This document shows, one piece after another, positions 17,370 to 42,075 of a DNA stretch of 42,075 nt. How positions within the stretch are numbered: position 1 is the stretch's first letter; each line of letters begins with the position of its first letter. The stretch covers positions 1 through 42,075 of the forward strand of contig JAKEHP010000254.1 in NCBI GenBank assembly GCA_022614955.1, written 5' to 3'. Position numbers and translations under genes: made by a program. This DNA is from Candidatus Methylomirabilota bacterium. GTDB taxonomy: Bacteria > Methylomirabilota > Methylomirabilia > Methylomirabilales > JACPAU01. Under the pieces are notes generated by a model that saw nothing but the letters and a program-made list of their open reading frames with translations, had not been told where the DNA came from and searched no databases.

Positions 17370-18470
17370 CTAGGGGCGCGGAGAGAGTCGTGGCAGGCAG
17401 TGGGCTGCGGAGGCCTTGAAGGTGGCGATGACCGCTGTCCCCTCCGCCAGACCGAGCGCGGCGGCGGAGGGCCGGGTCACCAGGGCCGTCACGGGCGCGC
17501 CGCAGTCCAGGTGGACCCGGAGCAGCGGCCCGGCCGCGACGAGCCTGACCACCCGGCCGGGGAGATTATTCCGCGCGCTGCTCACGCGCCCCCTCTCCGC
17601 CGCCGGCAGCAGCGTCACATCCTCCGGGCGGAGGCACAGGAGGGCCCGCTCCCCGGCGGGGAGGGTCCCGACTGCCTGGACCCGGTTTCCCGCCACCTCC
17701 AGGGTCAGGAGACCCTCCGCCGCCCCCAGAACGGTCCCCTCCAGAATGGTGTCCGCCCCCACGAGGCGCGCGACGGCCGGGGTGGCCGGCCGCGTGAAGA
17801 CCTCCGCTGCCGGCCCCACCTGCGCCACCCGGCCCTCGAGCAGGACCGCGACCCGGTCGCCCAGCCGCAGGGCCTCGGCCCGGTCGTGGGTGACCAGGAC
17901 CGCCGCTATCCCACGCTCTCGCTGCAGGGCCAGGAACTCCTCCTGCAGCGGCTCGCGGCTCCCCGGGTCGAGGGCGGCGAAGGGCTCGTCCAGCCCGAGC
18001 AGGTCCGGGTCGGGGGCGAACGCCCGCGCCAGGCTCACCCGCTGCGCCTCCCCCCCGGAGAGGGTCGCAGGCCGCCGGCCAGCCACCCCGGCCACACCGA
18101 GGCGCTCGAGCCAGCGGAGCGCCCGGGTCTCCGCCTCGTGCCGGGGCACCCCCCGCAGGCGCAGCGGCAGCGCGGCGTTCGTCAGGGCGGTGGCGTCGAG
18201 CAGGAGCGGCTCCTGGAAGCAGCAGCTCAGCCGCCGACGCCAGGAGACCCGCCCCGCGGCCGCAACGGGGGCTCCCTCGAAGATCACCTCGCCAGCCGAC
18301 GGGGCCTCGAGGAGCGTCAGCACCCGGAGGAGGGTGGATTTCCCTGCCCCGTTCGGCCCGAGGAGGGCGAGGATCTCCCCGCGCTCCACCGTAAGGGCCC
18401 CCACCGCCAGAACCGTCCGGTCCCCATAGCGGACCCGGACATCGCGCAGGCTGGTGAACGGTGCGCTCAT
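17370..18470 (-). CDS. tupC: Tungstate/molybdate-type ABC transporter ATP-binding protein with C-terminal TOBE-like domain
   Basis: LLGPNGAGKSTLLRVL...LSGGEAQRVSLARAFAPDPDLLGLDEPFAALD; C-terminal SARNNLPGRVVRLVAAGPLLRVHLDCGAPVTALVT resembles TOBE. Confidence 0.8.
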   Translation of the reverse strand: MSAPFTSLRDVRVRYGDRTVLAVGALTVERGEILALLGPNGAGKSTLLRVLTLLEAPSAGEVIFEGAPVAAAGRVSWRRRLSCCFQEPLLLDATALTNAALPLRLRGVPRHEAETRALRWLERLGVAGVAGRRPATLSGGEAQRVSLARAFAPDPDLLGLDEPFAALDPGSREPLQEEFLALQRERGIAAVLVTHDRAEALRLGDRVAVLLEGRVAQVGPAAEVFTRPATPAVARLVGADTILEGTVLGAAEGLLTLEVAGNRVQAVGTLPAGERALLCLRPEDVTLLPAAERGRVSSARNNLPGRVVRLVAAGPLLRVHLDCGAPVTALVTRPSAAALGLAEGTAVIATFKASAAHCLPRLSPRP

Positions 18471-19165
18471 GGACGGCGCGCCCGCTGCTGGACGGAGGTG
18501 AGGGCGGCGTTCAGCGCAAAGGCCAGGGCGAGCAGGATGATCCCGAGGGCGATGGCTGTCTCGAACTTCCCCATGCTGGTCTCGAGGACCGTCGCGGTCG
18601 TGAGGACGCGGGTGAGGCCCCGGATATTCCCGCCGACCATGAGGACCGCGCCCACCTCCGCGAGGAGCCGGCCGCCGGCCGCCATGACCGCGGCGAGCAG
18701 GGCGCCGCGCGCCTCGTACAGGAGGAGGGCGACCGCCTGCACCGGCGAGGCGCCGAGGGCGAGGAGTTGCAAACGGAGCCGGGGATTCAGGGCCTGCAGC
18801 GCCGCCATGGCGAGCCCGGTGACGATCGGCAGCGCGATGATCGTCTGGGCGAGGACCATTGCACTCGGCGTAAAGAGCATCTCCAGGAAGCCCAGGGGGC
18901 CGCTCCGCCAGAGGAGGATCGTGACCAGGAGGCCCACGACGACCGGCGGGAGCCCCATCCCGGCGTTGACGGCGCTCGCCAGCAGGTGCCGCCCCGGGAA
19001 GCGGCCGAAGGCGAGGAGGGCGGCCCCGGGCAGGCCCAGCAGGAGGGCAACGAGCAGGGCTGCCCCGGAGACCCGGAGCGTGAGGAGCGTGATCTCCCAG
19101 ACCCCCGGGTCGCCCGTCAGGACGAGCCGCAGGGCCTCCCGGATGCCTTCCCAGATCAGGTCCAT
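18467..19165 (-). CDS. tupB: Tungstate-type ABC transporter permease
   Basis: Multi-TM; GMGLPPVVVGLLVTILLWRSGPLG..., between ATPase and binding-protein genes. Confidence 0.85.
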   Translation of the reverse strand: MDLIWEGIREALRLVLTGDPGVWEITLLTLRVSGAALLVALLLGLPGAALLAFGRFPGRHLLASAVNAGMGLPPVVVGLLVTILLWRSGPLGFLEMLFTPSAMVLAQTIIALPIVTGLAMAALQALNPRLRLQLLALGASPVQAVALLLYEARGALLAAVMAAGGRLLAEVGAVLMVGGNIRGLTRVLTTATVLETSMGKFETAIALGIILLALAFALNAALTSVQQRARRP

Positions 19166-19166
19166 G

Positions 19167-20018
19167 CTACCCGCCTCCGGGCGCGGCCGTGTTGGCGTCT
19201 GGGAAGAAGAGTGGTTGGCCGTAGCGCTCCACGCCGAAGGTCCGGATCACCTCCTGCGCCTCGGCCGAGACCAGGAAGTCCGCGAGGGCCTTCCCCCCCG
19301 CCGCGTTGACCTTCGGGTGCCGGGCCGGGTTCACCTCCATCACGTGGTACGGGTTGAGGAGCGGGGCGTCCCCCTCGAGGAGGATGGCGAGGCGGAGCCG
19401 CTGCTGGAAGGCCAGGTACGTCCCCCGGTCCGTCAGCGTGTAGGCCCCCTTCTCTGAAGCGATGATGAGCGTCACCCCCATCCCCTGCCCCGACTCCAGG
19501 TACCAGCGCCCCTTGGGCCCGACGGCGGCGGCCTTCCAGAGGGTCTGCTCCTTGTTGTGGGTGCCGGAGTTGTCGCCCCGCGAGACGAACCGGGCCTGGC
19601 GTCCGGCGATCCTCCGGAAGGCCTCGGCCGCTCCCGTCGCCCCCCGAATCCCCGCCGGGTCGGCGGGCGGACCCACCAGGATGAAGTCGTTGTGCATGAC
19701 GGGACGGCGATTCGTCAGGTTCCCCTCGGCGACGTAGCGGCGCTCGAGTTCCGGAGCATGGGCCAGGACCACGTCAGCTTCGCCCCGGGCGCCCAGTGCC
19801 AGGGACTGCCCGGTCCCGACGGCGATAGCCTTGACGGTGTAGCCCGTTTTCTTCTCGAAGAGCGGGACGAGGACGTCGAGGAGGCCGGAGTCCTGGGTGC
19901 TGGTCGTGGTCGCGAGGAGGACCGTTCGCTCCTGCGGGGCGGCGGCTCTGGGCCCTAACAGGAGAGCGAGGAGGAGTCCGACGACCATCGGTTGCCACCT
20001 GGAGGGTTTCCGTCGCAT
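19167..20018 (-). CDS. tupA: Tungstate-type ABC transporter substrate-binding protein
   Basis: VLLATTTSTQDSGLLDVLVPLFEKKTGYTVKAIAVGTGQSLALGARGEADVVLAHAP...GRWYLESGQGMGVTLIIASEKGAYTLTDRGTY, a TupA-type pattern. Confidence 0.88.
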   Translation of the reverse strand: MRRKPSRWQPMVVGLLLALLLGPRAAAPQERTVLLATTTSTQDSGLLDVLVPLFEKKTGYTVKAIAVGTGQSLALGARGEADVVLAHAPELERRYVAEGNLTNRRPVMHNDFILVGPPADPAGIRGATGAAEAFRRIAGRQARFVSRGDNSGTHNKEQTLWKAAAVGPKGRWYLESGQGMGVTLIIASEKGAYTLTDRGTYLAFQQRLRLAILLEGDAPLLNPYHVMEVNPARHPKVNAAGGKALADFLVSAEAQEVIRTFGVERYGQPLFFPDANTAAPGGG

Positions 20019-21158
20019 CTAGTTCACCTCCCGCACCCGGCCGGTCTCGCGGGTGTCGTAGCCCCCCAGGTGCCGGACCTGCTGCCGGAAAGCCCGGTCC
20101 CGCAGGGCGGCGCGGAGGATGGTCAGCGGGGGGCGGCTTACGCGCGCCAGGGGGCAGACGAGATCGTAACGCTCGCGGAACAGGGGGACAAAGCCGAGAC
20201 CGAAGGCCTCGGCAGCCGCCCGGAGGCCCAGGCCGGCGTCAGCTTCCCCCCGGGCCACGGCCGCGGCGACCTCGAGGTGCGTGGTGGCCTCCCGGGGGAC
20301 GGGGCGCAGCCGCGCCATCGGGATCCCGTCTTGCCGCAGCCCCCACTCCAGCAACAGGTGGGTCCCGGAGCCGGCCGTCCGCCGGATCAGCCGCACCCCG
20401 GACCGGGCGAGGTCGGCCAGGCGCCGCAGGCCCCGCGGGTTGCCCGGCGCCACGAGCAGCCCTTGCTCTCGATGGGCCACCGTGACGAGGGCCATCCGCT
20501 CTCCCGGGAAGAGGCGGGCCACGATGGGCCCGTTGTACTCCCCCGTCGCCGGGTCGAGTAGGTGAACGCCCGCGATGTCCGCCTCCCCCTGCCTGAGCGC
20601 GAGGAGGCCGGGGAGGCTCCCCACGGCGCGGATGTCCAGGGAAAGGCGGAGGCCTGTCTGGCGCAGGGCGGCGGGGAGTAGATCGAGGGTCAGGTCGTGG
20701 CTCCCGACGAGGCGCAATGTGGCAGGCTCCCTGCGCCGGGCGGCAGCCGGGGGTGCCACGGCGTCGGGCGCTCCGGCCGTCCGCCACCGGCCGAGCTGCA
20801 GGGAAAGCGCTGCCTCGATCTCTGCCGGCTCTGCCCCCAGGCTCAACGCTTCTAGGGCCGCCCGGCCGAGGAGACCCCGGACCTGCCCCGCCCGCCGCGC
20901 GAGGAGCCGTGGGTCCCCCGGCGGCATCGCCACAATCGTCCCGGCGCGCCGCCGTGTAGCCAGAAGCCCCTCCCGTCCCAGGGCAGCGTAGGCCCGGCCC
21001 ACCGTGTTGGGGGTGACGCCGAGCGTCCCGGCCAGGCGGCGAACGGGGGGGAGCCGGTCGCCGGCCTTCAGGCCCCCGGCGGCGACCGCCGCCCGGACCT
21101 GGTCCATCACCTGGGTGTAGAGGGTGCGGTCCGGCTTCAGGCGTAGGCGTAGCGGCAT
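20019..21158 (-). CDS. GntR-type HTH fused to COG1910-like molybdate/tungstate-binding (PBP) domain; transcriptional regulator
   Basis: N-term LYTQVMDQVRAAVAAGGLKAGDRLPPVRRLAGTLGVTPNTVGRAYAALGREGLL (wHTH). C-term SHDLTLDLLPAAL...GLLALRQGEADIAGVHLLDPATGEYN...EQGLLVAPGNPRGLRRLADL...RRTAGSGTHLLLEW. Confidence 0.85.
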   Translation of the reverse strand: MPLRLRLKPDRTLYTQVMDQVRAAVAAGGLKAGDRLPPVRRLAGTLGVTPNTVGRAYAALGREGLLATRRRAGTIVAMPPGDPRLLARRAGQVRGLLGRAALEALSLGAEPAEIEAALSLQLGRWRTAGAPDAVAPPAAARRREPATLRLVGSHDLTLDLLPAALRQTGLRLSLDIRAVGSLPGLLALRQGEADIAGVHLLDPATGEYNGPIVARLFPGERMALVTVAHREQGLLVAPGNPRGLRRLADLARSGVRLIRRTAGSGTHLLLEWGLRQDGIPMARLRPVPREATTHLEVAAAVARGEADAGLGLRAAAEAFGLGFVPLFRERYDLVCPLARVSRPPLTILRAALRDRAFRQQVRHLGGYDTRETGRVREVN

Positions 21159-21169
21159 GGGGAGCACCA

Positions 21170-21194
21170 TTTGTATCAAGATAATTAGTACAAA
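21170..21194. promoter_or_regulatory. Candidate operator TTTGTA-N13-TACAAA upstream of the GntR-PBP regulator
   Basis: Perfect 6-bp inverted repeat (21170-21175 / 21189-21194) in an AT-rich patch within a GC-rich region, directly upstream of the likely ATG (21158). TTGACA (minus) at 21216-21221. Confidence 0.45.
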
Positions 21195-23758: not shown

Positions 23759-24025
23759 CGCGCCTCATGAGACATGAGAATAGACAGCAAGGGGCCTCCG
23801 CGCGGCAGCGGGTAGCCCCCTCCGCTTCGGCTACTCTATTCTACCGCCCATGGCTATTGTGGACCAGGGCTTCGATGGCCCCCTGGTCGGTCGGGGCCCG
23901 TTCTCAGTGAGGACGTGCGCTGGAAGGTGTGGCTGCGGAAGTGGGCCTACCCCCGGAGCGGCAGCCCCCGGTCCCCGCGGCCCCCCAGGCTGTGGGTGAC
24001 GCTGCCGGCTTGGAGGGTGGCTCCC

Positions 24026-25105
24026 CTACCGGCAGGCCTTGCCGACGACCCGGATGGCGTCGCTCCCGCTCATCCGATCGCCCGAGAAGGTGACGCCGCT
24101 GAGGGTGGCCTGGGTGTCGGCACACGTGAGGCCGGTGGCGGGGATCGAGAACTGGAGGAGGAGGTCGGGCCGGCCATCGTCGTTAGTATCTTCCAGGTGA
24201 TGCTTCGGCTTGCCCCTTGTCCCCGTGTGCTTCCGCCGGCCTTCCCGATCCTCCTCCTCATCGTCTTCGTCATCGTCTCCAGCGAGGGGCGGGGCCTGCC
24301 CTGGGCCGAAGCGCACGGTCGGGGTGTTCACCGTGGTGGCAGCGAAGGTCGGCGTGGACAGAATGGCCACGCGCACATGCCCCCCGGAGTCGAGGTTGAT
24401 GGTGTTGCGCCGATCATCCGGCTTGATGTCGAGGGGGACGGTGAGCTTTCTGAACTTCACGGTGACCGGGACGGTGGTGGATTTGTCCTTGTAGGTCACG
24501 GTGATCGTGGTCGTCCCGGGCTCCACGGCCTCGACCAGGCCCTCAGGAGTGACAGTGGCCACTTGGGGATTGCTCGAGACATATGTGATCTCCCGGGATT
24601 TCGAGATATCACGCGTCGTCCCGTCGGTGAAAGTACCCTCCACCTTGAGCCGCTGCTCGGTCACTCCTGCAATCAGAGCAACGCTGGCTGGCCGGCCAAC
24701 AGTCCTTGACCTCACCCGGATCATTTGAACCGGCGCCACGGTCTCCACATGAATCGTAATCGTTGATTTGACGGAGTCATCCTTGCCGAGGCCGATAAAG
24801 GCGGTGAGTGGCTGGGGCCCTAGGGGAGCGTCGGGAGGGATCTCGAGGGTGAAGACGAAGGGGGGAGCGGTCTTGAAGTCGCTGGCAAGCGGAGAGAGGA
24901 CGGCGACGCCCCGGAACCGGTCAGTCGGCGAGGCCTCGACCGTCACGGTCAGGGTCTCCCCGGGCTCCACGGCGGTCCCGTCGGCAGGGGAGAGTATGCG
25001 AAGAGTAATTGGGGATCCCGCCGCGGCCGAGACAATCGGGAAAGTCGAGAGGCTGAGGAGAAGAGCGGACACACCTCTCAGCCAATGGCGGGCCCTGGAC
25101 TTCAT
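24026..25105 (-). CDS. Secreted Big_2-type Ig-like domain protein with acidic/Ca-binding-like segment
   Basis: Signal peptide; VEGTFTDGTTRDISKSREITYVSSNPQVATVTPEGLVEAVEPGTTTITVTYKDKS (Big_2); GDDDEDDEEED and EDTNDDGRPDLLLQF. Confidence 0.8.
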   Translation of the reverse strand: MKSRARHWLRGVSALLLSLSTFPIVSAAAGSPITLRILSPADGTAVEPGETLTVTVEASPTDRFRGVAVLSPLASDFKTAPPFVFTLEIPPDAPLGPQPLTAFIGLGKDDSVKSTITIHVETVAPVQMIRVRSRTVGRPASVALIAGVTEQRLKVEGTFTDGTTRDISKSREITYVSSNPQVATVTPEGLVEAVEPGTTTITVTYKDKSTTVPVTVKFRKLTVPLDIKPDDRRNTINLDSGGHVRVAILSTPTFAATTVNTPTVRFGPGQAPPLAGDDDEDDEEEDREGRRKHTGTRGKPKHHLEDTNDDGRPDLLLQFSIPATGLTCADTQATLSGVTFSGDRMSGSDAIRVVGKACR

Positions 25106-25168
25106 TCCCTTTCCTCCTCCCGAAGAGGTATCAGGCGGAGAACGATCTGCCCGCTAACTCTCGGTTGG

Positions 25169-27763
25169 CTACCGCAGCCCTGGGGGTCGCACAAAGAAGT
25201 CAAAGAGTTCTGACTCCAGCACGCCATTTAGCAGGAGGATGACTCGCTGGGCAATGGCTCCGGATTCCAGTTCGGCCTGGCCGATGAAAAGTTTCGGGAT
25301 CCGCGTGTGGATGACCGCATCGCTAAGGGGGAAAGGGCCAAACGTGCTTACGCTCAGGGCGCCGGGGGAAAAACTCCCCCGCTGGCTCGCCGCCTCGACC
25401 ACGAGATCGTGATCCAGCGTCCGGAAGATCTGATCCAGACCCCCCGGGGGAATCGCCCCCGCACACCCGATGCTGAGCGTCTGGAATTTCGGGCTGGTTT
25501 GGCTCGCTGCCTTCTGCTGCGGGCTCGCAATGCCCACAATCGTGTGCATCCTGATGGGGGAGAGATTCCGGTTCACGAGCTCGAGGTTTGGGCTCCGCGG
25601 AACCATATCGGCAACGGCGCCTTGATCCGTTCGCAACCCCGCAGCGTTGAGCGCATCGCTCAGGCAGGCGCTTCGGCGCACCCGGCGTGCAAGAGCAGAG
25701 CCAAAATGGGGCGTGCCGATGGTGACGAGCTTATGGGTGTCGCCCAGGCCGAAGTTATCATCGCGGAAGAACGCACTGCCAAGCAGGGGCAGCCCCCGAA
25801 CCAGCAGGCCCCCCATGCTGTGGGCGACTACATCGGCTTGGATGGCAGCAACCTGTTCTGTTGTCTTAAACTCTTGGATAAAGCTCTTAATTTGGTTTCC
25901 CACGACCGGCGTGTTGAAGCTCAGCCCTGCGGCATTGAAATCCTCGTAGTCTGCGAAATTTAATGAGAACGGAGCATTGGTTATTAGGGGTACGAAGTTG
26001 CTCCAACTTTTCTCCGAGCCCCACAGGCCATGCACGAGGACTACGGGAGGCCGGGCGATCGTGATCGGGATCGTGGCCTCCTGGGCCGCCTCGCCCGTCT
26101 GGGGGGTGAAGCGGCCGCGGAGGGAGACCTGCCGATCCCTCTCGTTGGCATCCCCGGATCCCGCCCGCGCAAAGCGGCTCGGAGCATGGTAGATGGCGAA
26201 GGCCATCGGGCCCCTGTCGGGGACCTGCACGGTGGGCACGAAGAGGCTATTGGACCCCACTGTGTCTCCTACCTGGGTCAGGAAGCCGGCCTCCTCCGCA
26301 GGAGCAAGCGGCGTGCCAGCGGCATCCACCAGGGCAAGTTCCACCGTGCCCGGCCCCGGGGGGATCACCCGGACCACCACCCGGGCCACCCCGTCGGCGG
26401 CCACCCCTCTGACCGTCTCGACTCGTTGCGCCAGCGCGGCCTTGGCTTCCTCCGCCGTCTGGGTGAGTTCTGCCAGCAGGTCCGGCACCGGATCGACGAT
26501 CTCCATCTCCAGACCACCTGGAGAGGCAAGGAAGATCCCGCGCTGGCCCGTGGATAATTGCGATTGGAATGCGATCTCGCGCTTATTATTGAGCCGACCA
26601 AAAACGAACTGAAAAGTCCCGCCCCTCGGCGCTGTATCGCCCCTCCGCACAACTTTGGATAACGCGCCTTCCGTGCTCAGGAGAAAGATTCCATTGCTTG
26701 ACCCAAAGGCGATATCTCCCTTGTCATTGATGTCAACCTGGATCGTAACAAAATTCCCAAAACCAAGAGCGCTCCAAAACGTCCCCCCTCCCGGGGCAGC
26801 ATCATCCTGATGCACGAGGCTCGTAAGGGTGCCATCGGGAGCTCGGCGGAAAATGGCCCAGGTGAAATCGCTCAGTTCAGCCACAAAGACAACTTGCCCT
26901 ACGTTATTCATATCCGCCGCTGCACCCCCAAATTGCCGGAATGTGGTGCCCTCTCGGGCTGGCCCCCCGGAGAGCGCAACGGGAATTCTTGAACTCCCAG
27001 TCTGGATGAATATGCCGCTGGGTGCGGGGGGTTGGGGCGCGGAGGTGATTCCAGTGCTGAACCAAACCAGGACATCTCCGAGATCACTGATAGCGGGGAT
27101 GGTGGCCGAATCGATTGTCCCTCCTCCGGGTGCGGAGGCGCCTCGCAGGGCAAGGAGGGTCGGGGTTCCACCCCGAATGAGGAAGTGCTCAATGCCCCTG
27201 TCAAGCGTGAAGAGCTGTAAGGCTATCGTGCCGGTGTTATTCATCGAAGTTACAACCACGTCGATGGTGCGTACGAAGCCCCCCGGACCAAAAATATCGG
27301 GGCACACCCCGAGACGGGTCAAGGTCCCACCCGAATAAAGGGCGGGGAGACCATGAAGAAGAGAAGGATGCGCTTCGGGAAAAACAATATCGCCGGAGTC
27401 GTTCATGAATGGAGGTCCTGGGGACGATGAGCTAATGCCTAGCAGTTCAAACGTAACGTCGCAGGACACACGAATCGGATCGCCTGGCTTGATAAGTCTT
27501 GTAATCCTTCCCTCCGCAACCAGATAAAGACCAAAACCGCCAAAGGGAATGAAGGGGTTCGTCCTGCCCGAGAAAGCGATCGCGCCGAGATTATTCGCCG
27601 CGAAAGTGAGAAGGTCGACGAATTCCCCTCCCTCTGGAGCGGTATCTCCAGTCAGGACGACAGGCTTGATCGTAAATTCGGCAGTCTCAGCGTGGTGCGA
27701 GGTGAGGAGGGGCAGGAGGAAGACGCTGAACATCAACAGATGAGGAGGGCGTTTCCGGGGCAT
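25169..27763 (-). CDS. Secreted multi-domain protein: N-terminal NxxGxxxF-type tandem repeats, C-terminal alpha/beta hydrolase (lipase-like)
   Basis: Start at MPRKRPPHLL with signal sequence. Repeats of LTGDTAPEGGEF...NNLGAIAFSG type; hydrolase PPVVLVHGLWGSEKSW...VVAHSMGGLLVRGLPLLG...VTIGTPHFGSAL. Confidence 0.82.
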   Translation of the reverse strand: MPRKRPPHLLMFSVFLLPLLTSHHAETAEFTIKPVVLTGDTAPEGGEFVDLLTFAANNLGAIAFSGRTNPFIPFGGFGLYLVAEGRITRLIKPGDPIRVSCDVTFELLGISSSSPGPPFMNDSGDIVFPEAHPSLLHGLPALYSGGTLTRLGVCPDIFGPGGFVRTIDVVVTSMNNTGTIALQLFTLDRGIEHFLIRGGTPTLLALRGASAPGGGTIDSATIPAISDLGDVLVWFSTGITSAPQPPAPSGIFIQTGSSRIPVALSGGPAREGTTFRQFGGAAADMNNVGQVVFVAELSDFTWAIFRRAPDGTLTSLVHQDDAAPGGGTFWSALGFGNFVTIQVDINDKGDIAFGSSNGIFLLSTEGALSKVVRRGDTAPRGGTFQFVFGRLNNKREIAFQSQLSTGQRGIFLASPGGLEMEIVDPVPDLLAELTQTAEEAKAALAQRVETVRGVAADGVARVVVRVIPPGPGTVELALVDAAGTPLAPAEEAGFLTQVGDTVGSNSLFVPTVQVPDRGPMAFAIYHAPSRFARAGSGDANERDRQVSLRGRFTPQTGEAAQEATIPITIARPPVVLVHGLWGSEKSWSNFVPLITNAPFSLNFADYEDFNAAGLSFNTPVVGNQIKSFIQEFKTTEQVAAIQADVVAHSMGGLLVRGLPLLGSAFFRDDNFGLGDTHKLVTIGTPHFGSALARRVRRSACLSDALNAAGLRTDQGAVADMVPRSPNLELVNRNLSPIRMHTIVGIASPQQKAASQTSPKFQTLSIGCAGAIPPGGLDQIFRTLDHDLVVEAASQRGSFSPGALSVSTFGPFPLSDAVIHTRIPKLFIGQAELESGAIAQRVILLLNGVLESELFDFFVRPPGLR

Positions 27764-28051
27764 GCGATCCCCTCCTGATGGCGCGAAGAGACGAGGTCGA
27801 GGAGGAAAACAATCCCAATCTGGCAAGGATCTTAAAATCATGGAAGGCCTACGAACTCTAATGGAAAGCGTGTTTGACCGCAAGCGAGATGTCTATCTCA
27901 CTAATGGTTGAGATCGGGCTGCGAGCGTTCGGGAAGACGCGCCGCCAAGCGGTAGAGGTAGCGCTCCTGGCTCGGTGGCCTCTTCCCCCAGCGCAGCGGA
28001 GTCTTCGCCCCTTGGTGGGGTTCCAGGAGGGCGGCCGCGCATGGGCAGGGG

Positions 28052-32654: not shown

Positions 32655-34592
32655 CTAGACCTCGCCCACCACCTCGCCCATGCGGCTCACGCCGTAGCCC
32701 CCCAGGGCGCCGACGGCGGCCCGGAACTCCGGGCCGCGGATGAGGGCGAGGAGGGGCACGAGGAGCGGAGCCTCGTAGTGGGCCCTGGGGATCACCAGGT
32801 CGTATCGCTCCTGAAGCAGCGGGACGAAGGCCAGGTCGAGGGCGCGGGCGGCCGCCAGGATGCCGAGGCCGCAGTCGGCGGCGCCGCTCCGGACGGCCGC
32901 GGCCACGTTCAGGTGGGTGTACTCCTCGCGGGCATAGCCGGGGATCCTCGCGGGGGAGATCCCCCGCTGTTTACACTGATAGTCGAGCAGGATGCGGGTC
33001 CCAGAGCCCCGCTGCCGATTGATGAACTGGAGATCCGGGCGCGTGAGGTCCTCCAGGGTCCGGATGCCCTTGGGATTCCCCTTCGGGACGATGAGCCCCT
33101 GCTCCCGGAACGTCAGGTTCACCAGGACGGCCGGGACGCCGGGAAGGGTCTGGCGGACGAAGGGGAGGTTGTACTCCCCCGTCGCCTCGTCCAGGAGGTG
33201 GGCGCCGGCCAGGTGGGCCTCCCCCCGGGACAGCGCCGTCAGTCCCCCCAGGCTCCCCACGTTGGCCGAGGCGAGTGTGAGGTCCGGGTGGCGCTGCCGG
33301 ATGAAGCTCGCCAGCAGATCCAGCGTGAGGTCGTGGCTCCCGATGGCCACGATGGTCCGGGCGATCTCCTCGGGGTCGCGGAAGAGCTCCACCGTGACCT
33401 CGGCCCCGGCGTGCAGCCCCTCGGAGCCCCGCGGGATCTTCACGACGCCATCGGCCCGGACCAGCGACATGATGACTCCGGCGCCGCGGGAGACGGGGGT
33501 GGCCACAACCTTGCCCCCGACCTGCCCGACTTTAACCCGGAGGAACTCGTCCTCCCCCATGGGGGAGAGGACCTTCCGGGTCAGGGTGGCCCGGACCTTG
33601 GGCCGGCCCGGCAGCGGCAGGCCCAGCATCCGGCACAGGAGGGGCCGCCCCAGCAGCTCGAAGGTGACGGCGGCCGAGACCGGGTAGCCCGGGATTCCCA
33701 GGACCGGTTTCCCCTGGGCAATCCCGAGGATCACCGGGTGGCCCGGCCGGATGGCGATGCCGTGAACCAGGAGCTTTCCCAGCTCCGCCACGGCCGCCGC
33801 GGTGAAGTCCTCCGAGCCGGCCGAGGAGCCGGCGTTCACCACGACTAGGTCGTGCTCCTTGAGCGCCTCCCGGACCGCCTCCAGGACCCGGGGATACTCG
33901 TCCGGGACGATGGGGAACCGGGTCGCGATGCCCCCCCATTCCTCCACCTGGCCGGCGAGCATGAGGGAGTTGTACTCGATGATGTCCCCCGGCTTGACGG
34001 CAGTCCCGGGAGGGACCAGCTCCGTGCCCGTGGGGATGATGGCCACCCGGGGCTTCCGCCGGACGAGGAGGGTGGGGCAGCCGCAGCCGGCCGCGGCCCC
34101 CAGGTCCACGGGGCGGAGGCGGTGGTTCTCCGGCAGGATCAGCTCCGTCGCCACCATGTCCTCCCCCATGGGTCGGACGTGGTGCCACGGGGCGACGGGG
34201 GCCACGATCTCCACCGCCTCGTCCCCGACCGGCTGCAGGGCCTCTAGCATGATGACGGCGTTGAACCCCTCCGGGATGGCATCCCCGGTGTCCACCCAGC
34301 GCGCCTGCTCTCCCAGCTTCAGGTGGATGGGGGTGGCCTCCGAGGCCCCCCGGGTCTCGCTGGCTCGAACCGTCACCCCATCCATGGCCGCCGCGTGGTA
34401 GTGGGGGGAGGAGAGCGCCGCCCAGACCGGGCGGGCCGTCACGCGCCCCAGGCACTCGGCCACCGGGAGGGCTTCCCCCGGCAGGCGGGTGGAGGCCCCG
34501 ACCTCGTCCAGGGCGGTGAGGAAGCGCTCGACCGCCACGTCGAGGGGGATGTCCTCCAGGTAAACCTTCCTGCCCTTCAGCGGATGGACCAT
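32655..34592 (-). CDS. moeA: MoeA molybdopterin molybdenumtransferase fused to C-terminal COG1910-like substrate-binding domain
   Basis: MoeA: SSPHYHAAAMDGVTVRA...VDTGDAIPEGFNAVIMLE...IIPTGTELVPPG...NAGSSAGSEDFTA...GIPGYPVSAAVTFELL. C-term: SHDLTLDLLASFIRQRHPDLTLASANVGSLGGLTALSRGEAHLAGAHLLDEATGEYN. Confidence 0.95.
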   Translation of the reverse strand: MVHPLKGRKVYLEDIPLDVAVERFLTALDEVGASTRLPGEALPVAECLGRVTARPVWAALSSPHYHAAAMDGVTVRASETRGASEATPIHLKLGEQARWVDTGDAIPEGFNAVIMLEALQPVGDEAVEIVAPVAPWHHVRPMGEDMVATELILPENHRLRPVDLGAAAGCGCPTLLVRRKPRVAIIPTGTELVPPGTAVKPGDIIEYNSLMLAGQVEEWGGIATRFPIVPDEYPRVLEAVREALKEHDLVVVNAGSSAGSEDFTAAAVAELGKLLVHGIAIRPGHPVILGIAQGKPVLGIPGYPVSAAVTFELLGRPLLCRMLGLPLPGRPKVRATLTRKVLSPMGEDEFLRVKVGQVGGKVVATPVSRGAGVIMSLVRADGVVKIPRGSEGLHAGAEVTVELFRDPEEIARTIVAIGSHDLTLDLLASFIRQRHPDLTLASANVGSLGGLTALSRGEAHLAGAHLLDEATGEYNLPFVRQTLPGVPAVLVNLTFREQGLIVPKGNPKGIRTLEDLTRPDLQFINRQRGSGTRILLDYQCKQRGISPARIPGYAREEYTHLNVAAAVRSGAADCGLGILAAARALDLAFVPLLQERYDLVIPRAHYEAPLLVPLLALIRGPEFRAAVGALGGYGVSRMGEVVGEV

Positions 34593-34607: not shown

Positions 34608-35840
34608 TCAGAAGAGGCGAACCGTCACCCGCTCCCCCGCCGGGATTCCGCTGGCGTCTGCCGGGACCTTCACCAGGCCATCCGCCCGGACCAGGGTGTA
34701 GATAAGATTGGACTTGCCGAAGACCGGCTCGGCCGTGAGGACCCCGTCCCTCCGGGTGATCCGCACCGGAACGTAGTCCTCCCGCCCCGGGATCGAGTTC
34801 ACGTTCTTGCCGAGGATTGCCGTCACCTCGGTCCGGTGGGGGGGGTCCCGGAGCCCGAGGAGCGCCGCGATCGCCGGGAGGACGAAGAGCCCGGCAATGA
34901 CCATGGCGGAGACGGGGTTGCCGGGGAGTCCGACCACCGGCTTCTCGTCCACCAGGGCCAGGATGGTCGGCTTCCCCGGCTTGATGGAGATGCCGTGGAC
35001 CAGGACGCCCGGGCGCCCCAGGGCGCTGATCACCTTTGCCGTGATGTCCCGGACGCTCACGGAGGAGCCGGCGGAGAAGACGGCCAGGTCCCCCTCGGCC
35101 ACGGCCCGCTCCGCTAACGCCCGGAGCGCCTCCTCCCGGTCCGGCGCGATGCCCAGGGGGACCGGGATTCCGCCCGCCTCCCGGACGAGGGCGCCGATGG
35201 TGTAGGTGTTGATGTCGCGGATCTGGCCCGGCCCGGGCTCCCGGTCGGGGGGGACTACCTCGTCCCCCGAGGAGACTATGGTGACCCGGGGCCGGCGCCG
35301 GACCCGGACCGCCGTGATCCCCACTGCCGTCAGGCCCCCGAGGTCCTGGGGCCGGAGGCGCTGCCCCGCGGCGAGGAGGACCTGTCCCTTCCGCACGTCC
35401 TCCCCCACCTGGATGACGTTCTCGCCGGGGGCCACGGGCCGGACCACCTCAATGGTAGTGGCGTCCACGGCCTGGGTGTGCTCCACGATGACGACCGCAT
35501 CCGCCCCGTCGGCCAGCATCCCACCCGTGTGCGCCTTCGCCCCCTCCCCCGGGTTGAGCCGAACCGCGGGAGCCTGCCCCATGGGGACCTCGCCGACGAT
35601 CTTCACGTAGGCCGGCAGGCCCTCCGTGGCCCCGAAGGTGTCCTCGGCCCGGACGGAGAAACCGTCCATGTTGCTCCGGGGGAAGGCGGGGAGGTCCATC
35701 GGCGAGGCGAGGTCTTCTGCTGTGACCCGCCCTAACGCCTCCGGCACCGGGACCACCTCGGTCTCCGGGATCGGGGCGATCCGGGGCAGGAAGCGGGCGG
35801 CGGCCTCCTCGACCGTGAGCACCTGGAAGAGTTCTGGCAT
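34608..35840 (-). CDS. moeA: MoeA molybdopterin molybdenumtransferase (second copy, single-function)
   Basis: LPAFPRSNMDGFSVRAEDTFGA...AHTGGMLADGADAVVIVEHT...VSSGDEVVPPD...SAGSSVSVRDITAKVI...VVGLPGNPVSAMVI. Confidence 0.95.
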   Translation of the reverse strand: MPELFQVLTVEEAAARFLPRIAPIPETEVVPVPEALGRVTAEDLASPMDLPAFPRSNMDGFSVRAEDTFGATEGLPAYVKIVGEVPMGQAPAVRLNPGEGAKAHTGGMLADGADAVVIVEHTQAVDATTIEVVRPVAPGENVIQVGEDVRKGQVLLAAGQRLRPQDLGGLTAVGITAVRVRRRPRVTIVSSGDEVVPPDREPGPGQIRDINTYTIGALVREAGGIPVPLGIAPDREEALRALAERAVAEGDLAVFSAGSSVSVRDITAKVISALGRPGVLVHGISIKPGKPTILALVDEKPVVGLPGNPVSAMVIAGLFVLPAIAALLGLRDPPHRTEVTAILGKNVNSIPGREDYVPVRITRRDGVLTAEPVFGKSNLIYTLVRADGLVKVPADASGIPAGERVTVRLF

Positions 35841-38481: not shown

Positions 38482-39642
38482 ATGGGTCCATATTGGAAAT
38501 TCCAGGTTGGGGGTCTTTCCCGGCGTGCCTTCCTCGTTCAGACCGGGGCAGCGGCGGCGCTGCTCAAAGGGGGACTTCGGGTTCCGCTGGCCTTCGCTCA
38601 GGAACCGGTCCCCGGCAAGGAAAGACTGATCGTCCGATCCGGGCGCCCCCTCAATCTGGAGACGCCGCTCAGGGAGCTGACGTCCTGGCTGACCCCCACC
38701 GACCGCTTTTTCGTTCGGAACAATTACGATGCCCCGGCCCTCGATGCGACTCAGTGGACGTTGCAGGTAGAGGGGGAGGTGGACAGGCCCCTCACCCTGC
38801 GCCTGGACGACCTGAAAAAGCTGGAGCCGGTGACCCAGGTCGTGACCCTGGAGTGCGCGGGCAACGGCCGCGGCTTCCACACCCCCAAGGCGTCGGGCAT
38901 CCAGTGGGAGCGTGGGGCCGTGGGGACCGCTGGCTGGGGCGGTGTGCGCCTGGCCGATATCCTCCGGATGGCTGGGGTCCGGCCCGCGGGCCGGCACGTG
39001 GCCCTCGACGGGGCGGACAAGCCCCCCTCCCCCGCGGCTCCGGACTTCATCCGGAGCGTCCCCATCTGGAAGGCCCTGGAGCCCCACACGATGGTCGCCT
39101 TCGAGATGAACGGGCAGCCCCTGCCGCCCCTCCACGGCTTCCCGGCCCGGGTCGTCGTCCCCGGGTGGATCGGCTCGGCCTCCGTCAAGTGGATCACGCA
39201 TATCCGCGTGATCCGCGACGAATTTGACGGCCCGTTCATGAAGCGGAGTTACCGGGCGCCGCGGGCGGAGGACGAGAAGGAGACCTACTCCCTCCAGTCA
39301 CTCGAGGTCAAGTCCGTCATTCTCCAGCCGGCGGACGGCCAGCAGGTCCCGGCGGGATCAGTGACCGTGGCTGGGTGGGCATGGGCGGGGGAGGGGGAAC
39401 TGGCCGGCGTGGACGTCTCTACGGACGGCGGGCAGAGTTGGAAGCCCGCGGGGCTCGTGGGGGAACAGCACCGCTACGCATGGCGGGGCTGGGAGTACGC
39501 CTGGGAGGCCAAGGCCGGGCAGCACACGGTGATGGCCCGGGCGACGGACAGCTACGGCCGGATCCAGCCCCCGCAGCCCAAGTGGAACCCGCTGGGCTAC
39601 CGCTGGAATGTGATTCATGCCGTTCGGGTCACCGTGGGGTAG
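38482..39642 (+). CDS. Sulfite oxidase-like molybdopterin-dependent oxidoreductase with Tat signal
   Basis: LSRRAFLVQTGAAAALL Tat motif; DRFFVRNNYDAP...VVTLECAGNGRGFHTP...AVGTAGWGGVRLADIL...HGFPARVVVPGWIGSASVKWI; C-terminal Mo-co dimerisation-like domain. Confidence 0.95.
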   Translation: MGPYWKFQVGGLSRRAFLVQTGAAAALLKGGLRVPLAFAQEPVPGKERLIVRSGRPLNLETPLRELTSWLTPTDRFFVRNNYDAPALDATQWTLQVEGEVDRPLTLRLDDLKKLEPVTQVVTLECAGNGRGFHTPKASGIQWERGAVGTAGWGGVRLADILRMAGVRPAGRHVALDGADKPPSPAAPDFIRSVPIWKALEPHTMVAFEMNGQPLPPLHGFPARVVVPGWIGSASVKWITHIRVIRDEFDGPFMKRSYRAPRAEDEKETYSLQSLEVKSVILQPADGQQVPAGSVTVAGWAWAGEGELAGVDVSTDGGQSWKPAGLVGEQHRYAWRGWEYAWEAKAGQHTVMARATDSYGRIQPPQPKWNPLGYRWNVIHAVRVTVG

Positions 39643-39949
39643 GCGGCTGGCCCGGCGCCTCCTCCTCGGGCTCCCGGGGGTGGGGGTCGTTCTCCTCGCC
39701 CTGGCCCAGCCGGATGCGGCCTTTCCGGCGACAGGACCCCTCCCACCGGGAAAGGACGTGGATCTGGTTACCGGGCGGTGCATTATCTGCCACGGCCTTG
39801 AGCTCGTGGCCCAGCAACGTCAGGGCCGGGGAGGGTGGACGGAGATTGTTGACCGGATGATCACGTGGGGGGCGCCGATCACCCCTGACGAACGCCAGAT
39901 GATCATTGAATATCTCATAAGATACCTCGGCCAGTCTCAGACCCCGTAG
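39617..39949 (+). CDS. Cytochrome c-like subunit of the sulfite oxidase-like enzyme
   Basis: Signal sequence and a single CIICH heme-binding motif; overlaps the oxidoreductase 3' end by 26 nt. Confidence 0.82.
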   Translation: MPFGSPWGRRLARRLLLGLPGVGVVLLALAQPDAAFPATGPLPPGKDVDLVTGRCIICHGLELVAQQRQGRGGWTEIVDRMITWGAPITPDERQMIIEYLIRYLGQSQTP

Positions 39950-40159: not shown

Positions 40160-40181
40160 TTAGATAGCTGAGGAGGTCTTC

Positions 40182-42075
40182 GTGTACCGGCACATTTACG
40201 TCCCGGTGGACAACTCCGAGCATTCCAATGCCGCCATCGACGTTGCCGTCGCCCTGGGGAAGGCATTCGGGGCCGATCTCGTGGGCAGTCATGTGTACGC
40301 GGCCAAGATGCACGACTACCGGTTCCGCCAAATGGAGTACACGCTGCCGCCGGAGTACCAGGACGAGCAGGAGATGGAGAAGCAGCGGAGGATCCACGAC
40401 TCCCTGATCACCATGGGACTGCAGCTCATCTCAGACTCCTACTTGGAGGTGATGGCCCAGAAAGCGGGGGCCGCGGGGCTCACTTGCAGAAAGGTGATGA
40501 TCGACGGCAAGAACTACGCCGAGCTGGCTCGGGACATCCAGAAGTCGGACTACGACCTGGTGGTGATCGGGGCCCTGGGGATGGGGGCGGTGAAGGAAAG
40601 CAGCCTGGGGAGCGTCTGCGAGCGGACGGTCCGCCGGATCCAGACGGACACCCTCGTGGTGAAGACCGTCATGCCGCCCGACGCGCTCCCCGATGCGGCG
40701 ATCGTGGTCGGTATCGACGGGAGCCTGCAGTCCTACGCCGGCCTGCAGGCGGCCATTGCGCTGGGGAAGGCGTTCCACCGCCGGGTGGAGGCGGTGGGGG
40801 TGTACGACCCCGTCCTACACTACGCGGTGTTCCACAGCCTCGCCGACGTCTTGACGGAGAAGGCGGCCAAGGTCTTCAAGTTCAAAGAGCAGGAGCAGCT
40901 CCACGAGGAGGTCATTGACACCGGCCTGGCCAAGATCTATCAGTCGCACCTAGAGGTCGCCCGGGAGGTAGCCCGTGACCAGGGGGTGGACCTGAAGATC
41001 ACCCTGCTGGACGGGAAGGCGTTCGAGCGGATCCTCCGGTACGTCCGCCAGACGGAAGCCTGGATGCTGGTCCTGGGCCGGATCGGCGTCCACAGCGACG
41101 ACGGGATGGACATCGGCTCCAACACCGAGAACCTCCTGCGGCTGGCCCCCTGCCACGTCCTGATCACCAGCCGGAAGTTCTATCCCCCCATGGATGTGAA
41201 GGCGGAGGCCAGCATCGCCTGGACGCCGGAGGCGGAGCAACGGATGGAGAAGGTGCCGGGCTTCGTGAAGGCCATTGCCAGGACGGCGGTCCTCCGCTTC
41301 GCGCTGGAGCGGGGACACTCGGTGATCACCAACTCCGTGATCGAGCAGGTGATGGACATCTTCATGCCCAGCCGGACCGCAGAGAAGGCGCAGGCGCTGG
41401 CCTTCGAGCTGGCGGTGGAGAACATCCGGGCTTCAGACATCCCGGCATACATCTGCCGGGTCTGCGGGCACACGGTGCGGGGCGTGCAGCCGGCGGTCTG
41501 CGTGGTCTGCTCCGCGGACGCGGCGAAGTTCGAGAAGCTGGACAAGGCGACGGTGGAGGTCCTCGCGGCCTCAGAGGGGGCGATCCGGGAGGAGGAGACC
41601 TTCGACGGGCTCAAGCTCCGCTGGACGGAGGAGGCGAACCGGGTTCTGCGGATGGCCCCCTCGGGGTACATGCGCCGCCGGGCCAAGGCCCGGATCGAGA
41701 AGGCGGCACGGGTGCAGCAGGTGGAGGCGGTCAGCAAGGAGCTGGCGTGGCCGATCGTGGCGGAGACTCTTGAGGATCAGCGGGTGATGCAGGACCGGGA
41801 CGCCCTGACGCCGGAGCAGCACATGCTCCGCGCCACCCGCGCCACGGGCAGGACCGACGACCTCTTCACCTGGACGGAGGAGGCGGTGGCTCGCCTCCAT
41901 CGGGTCCCCGAGGGGTACATGCGGGACATGACCAAAAAGCGGGTGGAGGAGGCCGCCGCGGAACGGGCGACTCGGGAGATCACGCTGGAGATCGTGGAGG
42001 CCGGAATCGAAGTCGGGAAAAAGATGATGGCCGAGCTGATCGAGGCGTACAACAAGACCGGGAAGACCCCCGGAC
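40182..42075 (+). CDS. Multi-domain protein: UspA + UspA + PCP_red-like + rubredoxin-like CxxC/CxxC + PCP_red-like x2 (runs off window)
   Basis: GTG start after GAGGAGG; continuous frame with no stop to the window end (631 codons read). VYRHIYVPVDNSEHSNAAIDVAVALGKAFGADLVGSHVY..., AIVVGIDGSLQSYAGLQAAIALGKAF..., AWTPEAEQRMEKVPGFVKAIARTAVLRFALERGHSVIT..., YICRVCGHTVRGVQPAVCVVC, LRWTEEANRVLRMAPSGYMRRRAKARIEKAA, FTWTEEAVARLHRVPEGYMRDMTKKRVEEAA. Confidence 0.85.
   Translation, partial: MYRHIYVPVDNSEHSNAAIDVAVALGKAFGADLVGSHVYAAKMHDYRFRQMEYTLPPEYQDEQEMEKQRRIHDSLITMGLQLISDSYLEVMAQKAGAAGLTCRKVMIDGKNYAELARDIQKSDYDLVVIGALGMGAVKESSLGSVCERTVRRIQTDTLVVKTVMPPDALPDAAIVVGIDGSLQSYAGLQAAIALGKAFHRRVEAVGVYDPVLHYAVFHSLADVLTEKAAKVFKFKEQEQLHEEVIDTGLAKIYQSHLEVAREVARDQGVDLKITLLDGKAFERILRYVRQTEAWMLVLGRIGVHSDDGMDIGSNTENLLRLAPCHVLITSRKFYPPMDVKAEASIAWTPEAEQRMEKVPGFVKAIARTAVLRFALERGHSVITNSVIEQVMDIFMPSRTAEKAQALAFELAVENIRASDIPAYICRVCGHTVRGVQPAVCVVCSADAAKFEKLDKATVEVLAASEGAIREEETFDGLKLRWTEEANRVLRMAPSGYMRRRAKARIEKAARVQQVEAVSKELAWPIVAETLEDQRVMQDRDALTPEQHMLRATRATGRTDDLFTWTEEAVARLHRVPEGYMRDMTKKRVEEAAAERATREITLEIVEAGIEVGKKMMAELIEAYNKTGKTPG

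Follow-up and report, generated by a model that had tools for sequence, protein, structure and literature searches.

The stretch of DNA analysed here (hereafter the window) is 42,075 nucleotides long and makes up contig C256 in full; the assembly to which it belongs, from a Candidatus Methylomirabilota bacterium, comprises 624 contigs and 2.8 Mb. At its right edge, whole-frame translation revealed a reading frame that opens with a GTG at position 40182 and continues to the contig end without a stop. We refer to its product, which combines Usp, PCP_red and rubredoxin-type modules, as the hub protein, after the role proposed for it below. The first-pass annotation had picked out this unlisted plus-strand coding region, and it proved to be a real gene for a single polypeptide: in relatives of the same class, orthologues with 55–89% identity are encoded in a single frame and cover residues 1 to about 625–630 of the query. 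Full-length orthologues terminate within a few codons of the point where the window is cut off and, judged from the closest relatives, the window copy would lack only about one codon and the stop. Given that full-length orthologues are found in many unrelated assemblies, both an assembly chimera and a separate downstream gene could be ruled out. The Usp-Usp-PCP_red-rubredoxin-PCP_red-PCP_red architecture is far beyond chance.

Directly upstream of the hub gene and co-directional with it lie genes for a molybdenum enzyme of the sulfite-oxidase type and for a small cytochrome c (38482–39949), in place of which relatives have other respiratory or methanol-dehydrogenase genes. Inspection by eye also pointed to a MoeA-like protein apparently fused to a periplasmic-binding-like C-terminal domain (32655–34592), an adjoining second MoeA-like gene (34608–35840), and a separate cluster resembling an ABC transporter of the tungstate type together with a regulator of the GntR type (17370–21170). 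The region 24000–28000, with a G+C content of 0.60–0.63 against about 0.70 elsewhere, encodes a long secreted protein, part of which is lipase-like, and is possibly acquired DNA.

Domain architecture and conservation of the hub protein

Pfam searches with the hub protein recovered Usp in two stretches (2.1e-35, 122.8 bits against a cut-off of 24), PCP_red in three (4.7e-29, 100.6 bits against 32.5) and RUBY_RBDX (1.3e-6, 28.2 bits against 26.5), all above the curated cut-offs. The domain reading made earlier from the sequence is borne out by these matches: tandem Usp domains are indicated both by the repeated family match and by the fold; the three PCP_red modules each open with W-T-x-E-A, at W347, W481 and W564; and the CRVCG...CVVC knuckle between modules 1 and 2 (C425-RV-C428-G ... 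C440-VV-C443) is of the rubredoxin/rubrerythrin type by both Pfam and profile comparison. Each module was confirmed by a second method (Table 1). Neither a nitrogenase-like catalytic domain nor the diiron four-helix domain of rubrerythrin was matched by Pfam in the hub protein, which also scored only 54.3 bits against the full-length TIGR01278 model, under its cut-off of 490.

Table 1. Features of the hub gene and its product, in window coordinates
Feature	Position	Strand	Basis
Shine-Dalgarno-like GAGGAGG	40170..40176	+	5 bases before GTG, spacing by eye
Usp-Usp-PCP_red-rubredoxin-PCP_red-PCP_red protein	40182..42075	+	631 residues; contig end probably about 1 codon before stop
Usp domain 1, aa 2-161	40185..40664	+	Pfam PF00582; tandem matches Rv2623, TTHA0350 (Foldseek)
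Usp 1 nucleotide motif G-2X-G-9X-G (G130, G133, G143)	40569..40613	+	glycines invariant, 52 sequences
Usp domain 2, about aa 172-330	40695..41171	+	second PF00582 stretch; model strands E174-177 to E325-329
Usp 2 nucleotide motif G-2X-G-9X-GS (G299, G302, G312, S313)	41076..41120	+	invariant, 52 sequences
PCP_red repeat 1, aa 347-389, WTPEA	41220..41348	+	PF08369; 2kru match
Rubrerythrin-type rubredoxin knuckle, aa 423-451, C425xxC428...C440xxC443	41448..41534	+	PF21349; rubrerythrin 2e-7 by profile
PCP_red repeat 2, about aa 481-524, WTEEA	41622..41753	+	PF08369 third stretch; 2l09 match; repeat alignment
PCP_red repeat 3, aa 564-607, WTEEA	41871..42002	+	PF08369; 2xdq ChlB match

The sequence profile of the protein additionally retrieved 2l09 (6e-6) and 2kru (1.5e-4). 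A full-length AlphaFold2 model (pLDDT 77.5) matched tandem Usp proteins in Foldseek searches, the closest solved one being Rv2623 of M. tuberculosis, followed by the ATP-bound TTHA0350, with UspE also among the matches. Matches of this model to KCC/NKCC transporters, which probably reflect the Usp-like cytoplasmic domain of the latter, were set aside on account of their low TM and 10% identity. Residues 335–631 were also modeled alone (pLDDT 82.1), with a low pTM of 0.37 that leaves the arrangement of the domains uncertain. The top PDB matches of this model were 2l09, nigerythrin and 2kru, at a Foldseek E of only about 0.02 because the domains are small, and it superimposed on the PCP_red domain of ChlB with an rmsd of 1.1 Å and 33% identity; histone-like and AAA+ matches (E > 0.3) were discarded.

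A scan of GTDB genome contigs detected relatives on 263 contigs, the best 80 of which are near full length and span several phyla, with representatives from Methylomirabilota (including Rokubacteria), Poribacteria, Calditrichota, Rhodothermia, Marinimicrobia, Planctomycetota, Acidobacteria and Deltaproteobacteria; the carriers are mostly metagenome-assembled. A search of plasmids with the hub protein gave Usp-domain matches only. Across 52 aligned members we noted strict invariance of the four knuckle cysteines, of the tryptophans that open the three PCP_red repeats, of D10 and D179, of the glycines of both Usp nucleotide motifs, and of a further set of histidines, namely H44, H72, H213, H241 and H256. 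The motif of the ATP-binding subclass, G-2X-G-9X-G(S/T), is wholly invariant in Usp 2, while its last position in Usp 1 is occupied by S in 29 of the 52 sequences and by G in the other 23.

The kinship to Rv2623 and TTHA0350 and the invariant glycines would also suit a regulator rather than a builder, in which the Usp domains and the knuckle sense ATP, redox state or oxygen limitation and adjust the activity or turnover of an oxidase, in the manner of hypoxia or dormancy Usp proteins; Usp proteins are among the strongest risers under low oxygen in Nitrospira marina (PMC8115632). Regulation of this kind leaves unexplained the fusions of PCP_red to a radical-SAM enzyme and a Zn-ribbon protein, and the link of PCP_red genes with hemH, hemE and ChdC, both described below, and we consider it somewhat unlikely.

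A conserved gene module next to terminal-oxidase genes

In the genome of NC10 CSP1-5 (locus L033), to which the window's genome is probably related judging from 89% identity, the hub gene is followed by genes for a radical-SAM/SPASM enzyme, a small membrane protein, an Mrp/NBP35-like ATPase and a Zn-ribbon protein, and these in turn by a CydA-like protein and then c cytochromes; both the radical-SAM enzyme and the Zn-ribbon protein carry a C-terminal PCP_red domain. The assembly of the window itself contains a contig of 3237 bp (C558) that begins about 7 codons into a radical-SAM-PCP_red gene, continues with the membrane protein, Mrp and Zn-ribbon-PCP_red genes in the CSP1-5 order, and ends where CydA starts in CSP1-5. 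C558 very likely continues the window, across a gap that CSP1-5, taken as a guide, would put at some 45 bases; the facing contig ends, when compared, had no common sequence. Many genomes of the phylum encode about five PCP_red domains, which fits a set of 3+1+1.

Among 86 orthologue loci, Mrp was found near the hub gene in 74, the radical-SAM-PCP_red gene in 56 (it was not found near the hub gene in the other 30) and the Zn-ribbon-PCP_red gene in 48. The partners are retained although they are arranged differently in Rokubacteria, Poribacteria, Calditrichota/Rhodothermia and CSP1-5. All copies of the Mrp-like ATPase keep the SGKGGVGKS motif, whereas 23 of the 74 (e.g. L034:13037-13900) are devoid of the CxxC cluster motif; these are nearly all from Rokubacteria, where almost every copy has lost it. 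This makes simple Fe-S delivery unlikely for those copies, weakening it as the role of Mrp, and suggests that ATPase switching is more general in this family than Fe-S transfer. We also observed a divergent module (L146:5932-13239, G066:C28), whose Usp protein is about 34% identical; it includes genes for Mrp, Zn-ribbon-PCP_red, a small ferredoxin-like protein and a radical-SAM enzyme, directly upstream of a CydA-like gene.

A terminal-oxidase gene, counted as Cox1-4, CtaA, CtaB or CydA-like within the flank examined, occurs near the hub gene in 75 of the 86 loci and nearly always on the same strand. By type these are Cox3 (67 loci), Cox4 (66), CtaB (62), CtaA (57), Cox1 (55) and CydA-like (7), as called with a home-made codon-usage gene caller by which small genes and starts are approximate. 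The remaining 11 loci mostly have short flanks; by eye, three of them (L053, L056, L057) are surrounded by other respiratory genes and one (L069) is not. SCO1/SenC and DUF983 genes are further frequent neighbors. In Rokubacteria a CydA-like gene and c cytochromes precede Cox2-Cox1-CtaA-CtaB-Cox3-Cox3-Cox4, DUF983, the hub gene, the radical-SAM gene, the membrane protein and Mrp, while in Poribacteria bc-type genes, a CydA-like gene, c cytochromes, Cox genes and SCO precede the hub gene, Mrp and Zn-ribbon-PCP_red. In both Poribacteria read through, the CydA-like gene lies upstream in the same respiratory cluster. This neighbor belongs to PF01654; genes for diheme and multiheme c cytochromes come after it, and CydB is missing.

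Proteins with three PCP_red domains were also encountered in other settings. Two such genes lie in further CydA-like clusters (L139:9474-16535 and L143:942-7687), the former followed by a Usp-type gene at the contig end and the latter with no Usp-type gene in the stretch examined. Another adjoins nitrate-reductase delta- and beta-type genes (L136:6672-10092) and a fourth lies near complex-I-like genes (L140:6196-7852). PCP_red may serve respiratory complexes besides oxidases.

Co-occurrence with a CydA-like protein and links to heme

We surveyed 81 genomes of the phylum with a completeness of at least 80%, in which PCP_red is present in 56, the hub protein in 50, radical-SAM-PCP_red in 49, the CydA-like protein in 52 and Cox1 in 74. 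PCP_red was detected in 51 of the 52 genomes with a CydA-like protein and in 5 of the 29 without (Fisher 1.2e-14), and the hub protein tracks radical-SAM-PCP_red (46/4/3/28, Fisher 2.9e-14), both values ignoring, and being inflated by, shared ancestry; the association of PCP_red with CydA-like is still present inside a single family (f7, p 3e-4). Radical-SAM-PCP_red and CydA-like likewise co-occur (46/6/3/26). In 23 genomes the PCP_red and CydA-like genes lie on one contig, 2.2–12.1 kb apart, and a CydA-like gene was found in all 14 sampled orthologue-bearing genomes from groups outside the phylum search.

The five genomes with PCP_red and without CydA-like (G000, G009, G029, G074, G075) are in 160–624 contigs or only 80–86% complete. 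The genome of the window gave no match to CydA-like or Cox1 at 1e-50, which we tentatively attribute to its fragmentation into 624 contigs, C558 breaking off just where CydA begins in CSP1-5. Cox1 showed no association with the module in the 81 genomes (p 0.42–0.67), and aa3 oxidases of the same kind are present without it in G010 and G013. Given that Cox1 does not track the module, the aa3 oxidase was rejected as its specific partner and the CydA-like oxidase is the better candidate. CydB scored above its cut-off in 13 of the 81 genomes, and in none of them did it share a contig with the CydA-like gene, so this oxidase is not the canonical quinol oxidase.

PCP_red is best known from BchB/ChlB, where it is the C-terminal domain of subunit B of DPOR; BchB, which bears the domain, has the P-loop Fe-S ATPase BchL as its working partner. 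To our knowledge, Methylomirabilota including Rokubacteria, Poribacteria and Calditrichota are not lineages known for photosynthesis. The earlier remark that no photosynthesis genes are visible in the window extends to the phylum: in a search that included Synechococcus as positive control, chlorophyll-type BchL was detected in none of the 81 genomes. A remnant of photosynthesis was rejected on this ground. The best-known home of PCP_red and the promiscuity of Usp domains as fusion partners might suggest a chlorophyll-pathway leftover or a general stress scaffold with no specific partner, but the lack of BchL in those genomes, the lack of a nitrogenase-like domain in the hub protein, and the strong synteny of its gene and its co-occurrence with a single type of oxidase render this most improbable. 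In the open-access literature we found neither a paper naming PCP_red together with Usp nor a description of the role of PCP_red inside DPOR; PF08369 was mentioned in a single paper.

Several observations connect PCP_red with heme. In G018 (L048:6185-11331, C172) a pair of PCP_red genes, encoding a 242-residue protein with three PCP_red domains and a Zn-ribbon-PCP_red protein, lies beside ferrochelatase (hemH), HemE, a CopD/DUF4149-type membrane protein and ChdC; this is a heme-biosynthesis cluster with PCP_red proteins. CtaA and CtaB adjoin module genes. The best families of the radical-SAM enzyme are NirJ2 (302.8 bits) and AhbD (298 bits), both under the equivalog cut-offs of 500, and TIGR04053, a family assigned without a substrate, scores 247.6. 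Heme precursors are the substrates of NirJ and AhbD (PMC7242693). Together with the presence of PCP_red in DPOR subunit B and the co-occurrence of the radical-SAM enzyme with CydA-like, these matches could indicate a catalytic tetrapyrrole-modifying complex, in which the enzyme, held by the hub protein, produces a special heme destined for the CydA-like oxidase. Such a complex is unlikely, since the scores fall below the cut-offs, TIGR04053 matches as well, and the neighboring CtaA and CtaB account for hemes A and O. Moreover, ChdC is present in the window's own genome (G000) and in G015, G003 and G027, from which it follows that heme b does not depend on the radical-SAM enzyme; a need for the latter as coproheme decarboxylase is thereby ruled out.

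Proposed function and comparison with known systems

As would be expected of a biogenesis factor, the hub gene is linked to, and co-occurs with, a terminal oxidase across distant lineages. This linkage is shown by genome context, and a functional link between the hub protein and the oxidase is highly probable; the biochemistry that we infer is as follows. The gene product would be the cytoplasmic hub of a conserved module that assists aerobic respiration. Its two Usp domains may bind ATP and thereby serve as a nucleotide switch, and the four-cysteine knuckle would carry either iron, as a redox input, or zinc, in a structural role. PCP_red could be a common docking domain through which the three PCP_red proteins converge on one partner, which by analogy to BchB and BchL would most likely be the module's P-loop ATPase or the tetrapyrrole-bearing oxidase. 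The radical-SAM partner might act on a heme-type substrate, and the module together would assemble the CydA-like oxidase or supply its cofactor, perhaps serving the neighboring aa3 oxidase too. We give even weight for and against a cytoplasmic, ATP- and redox-responsive protein that assembles or matures a heme-bearing oxidase; the choice of maturation or assembly over regulation is likewise evenly balanced, and heme as the cofactor handled is a tentative assignment.

The first-pass annotation had proposed a stress- or redox-responsive scaffold. Its domain reading stands, but the functional label is too vague and misses the oxidase-linked multi-gene module, and the evidence does not choose between scaffolding, maturation and regulation of the oxidase. 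A bolder version, which is rather unlikely, would have the module be a previously undescribed cofactor-maturation system for c-linked bd-like oxidases, with PCP_red as a general tetrapyrrole-handling or ATPase-docking domain common to the Usp hub, a radical-SAM enzyme that modifies heme and a Zn-ribbon protein, and possibly with a heme new to respiration. A domain filed under chlorophyll biosynthesis recurs here in a multi-gene respiratory module and, if the oxidase link is true, it would provide a handle on the building or control of poorly known c-linked bd-like oxidases and offer a function for the PCP_red domain.

Among known systems, c-linked OR-N enzymes of the cytochrome bd superfamily have been described (PMC10839748), and the PF01654 neighbor with its c cytochromes is a candidate member of the cytochrome-c-linked (OR-C/OR-N) groups. 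The heme-pathway radical-SAM enzymes AhbD and NirJ2 are the best families of the module's radical-SAM protein, which differs from them in scoring 298–303 against cut-offs of 500 and in carrying a C-terminal PCP_red domain. With the rubredoxin domain of rubrerythrin and nigerythrin (PF21349; 1nnq, 1yuz) the hub protein shares a helix followed by the CxxC...CxxC knuckle, but it is devoid of their diiron four-helix domain. The tandem Usp proteins Rv2623 (3cis), TTHA0350 (3ab8) and UspE (5cb0) share the fold of its N-terminal half (Foldseek E 2e-16 to 5e-12) and both G-2X-G-9X-G motifs; unlike them, the hub protein adds about 300 residues of PCP_red and rubredoxin modules and extra invariant histidines, and its gene is linked to oxidases. 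Finally, PF08369 is common to the hub protein, DPOR subunit B (ChlB/BchB; 2kru, 2xdq, 2ynm) and the stand-alone Asr4154 (2l09), the hub model superimposing on 2kru and 2ynm_D with an rmsd of 1.0–1.1. In DPOR this domain partners a P-loop ATPase, as it may, by analogy, in the hub setting; the latter is distinguished by three PCP_red copies, no nitrogenase-like domain, a phylum without BchL, and the additional fusion of PCP_red to radical-SAM and Zn-ribbon proteins.
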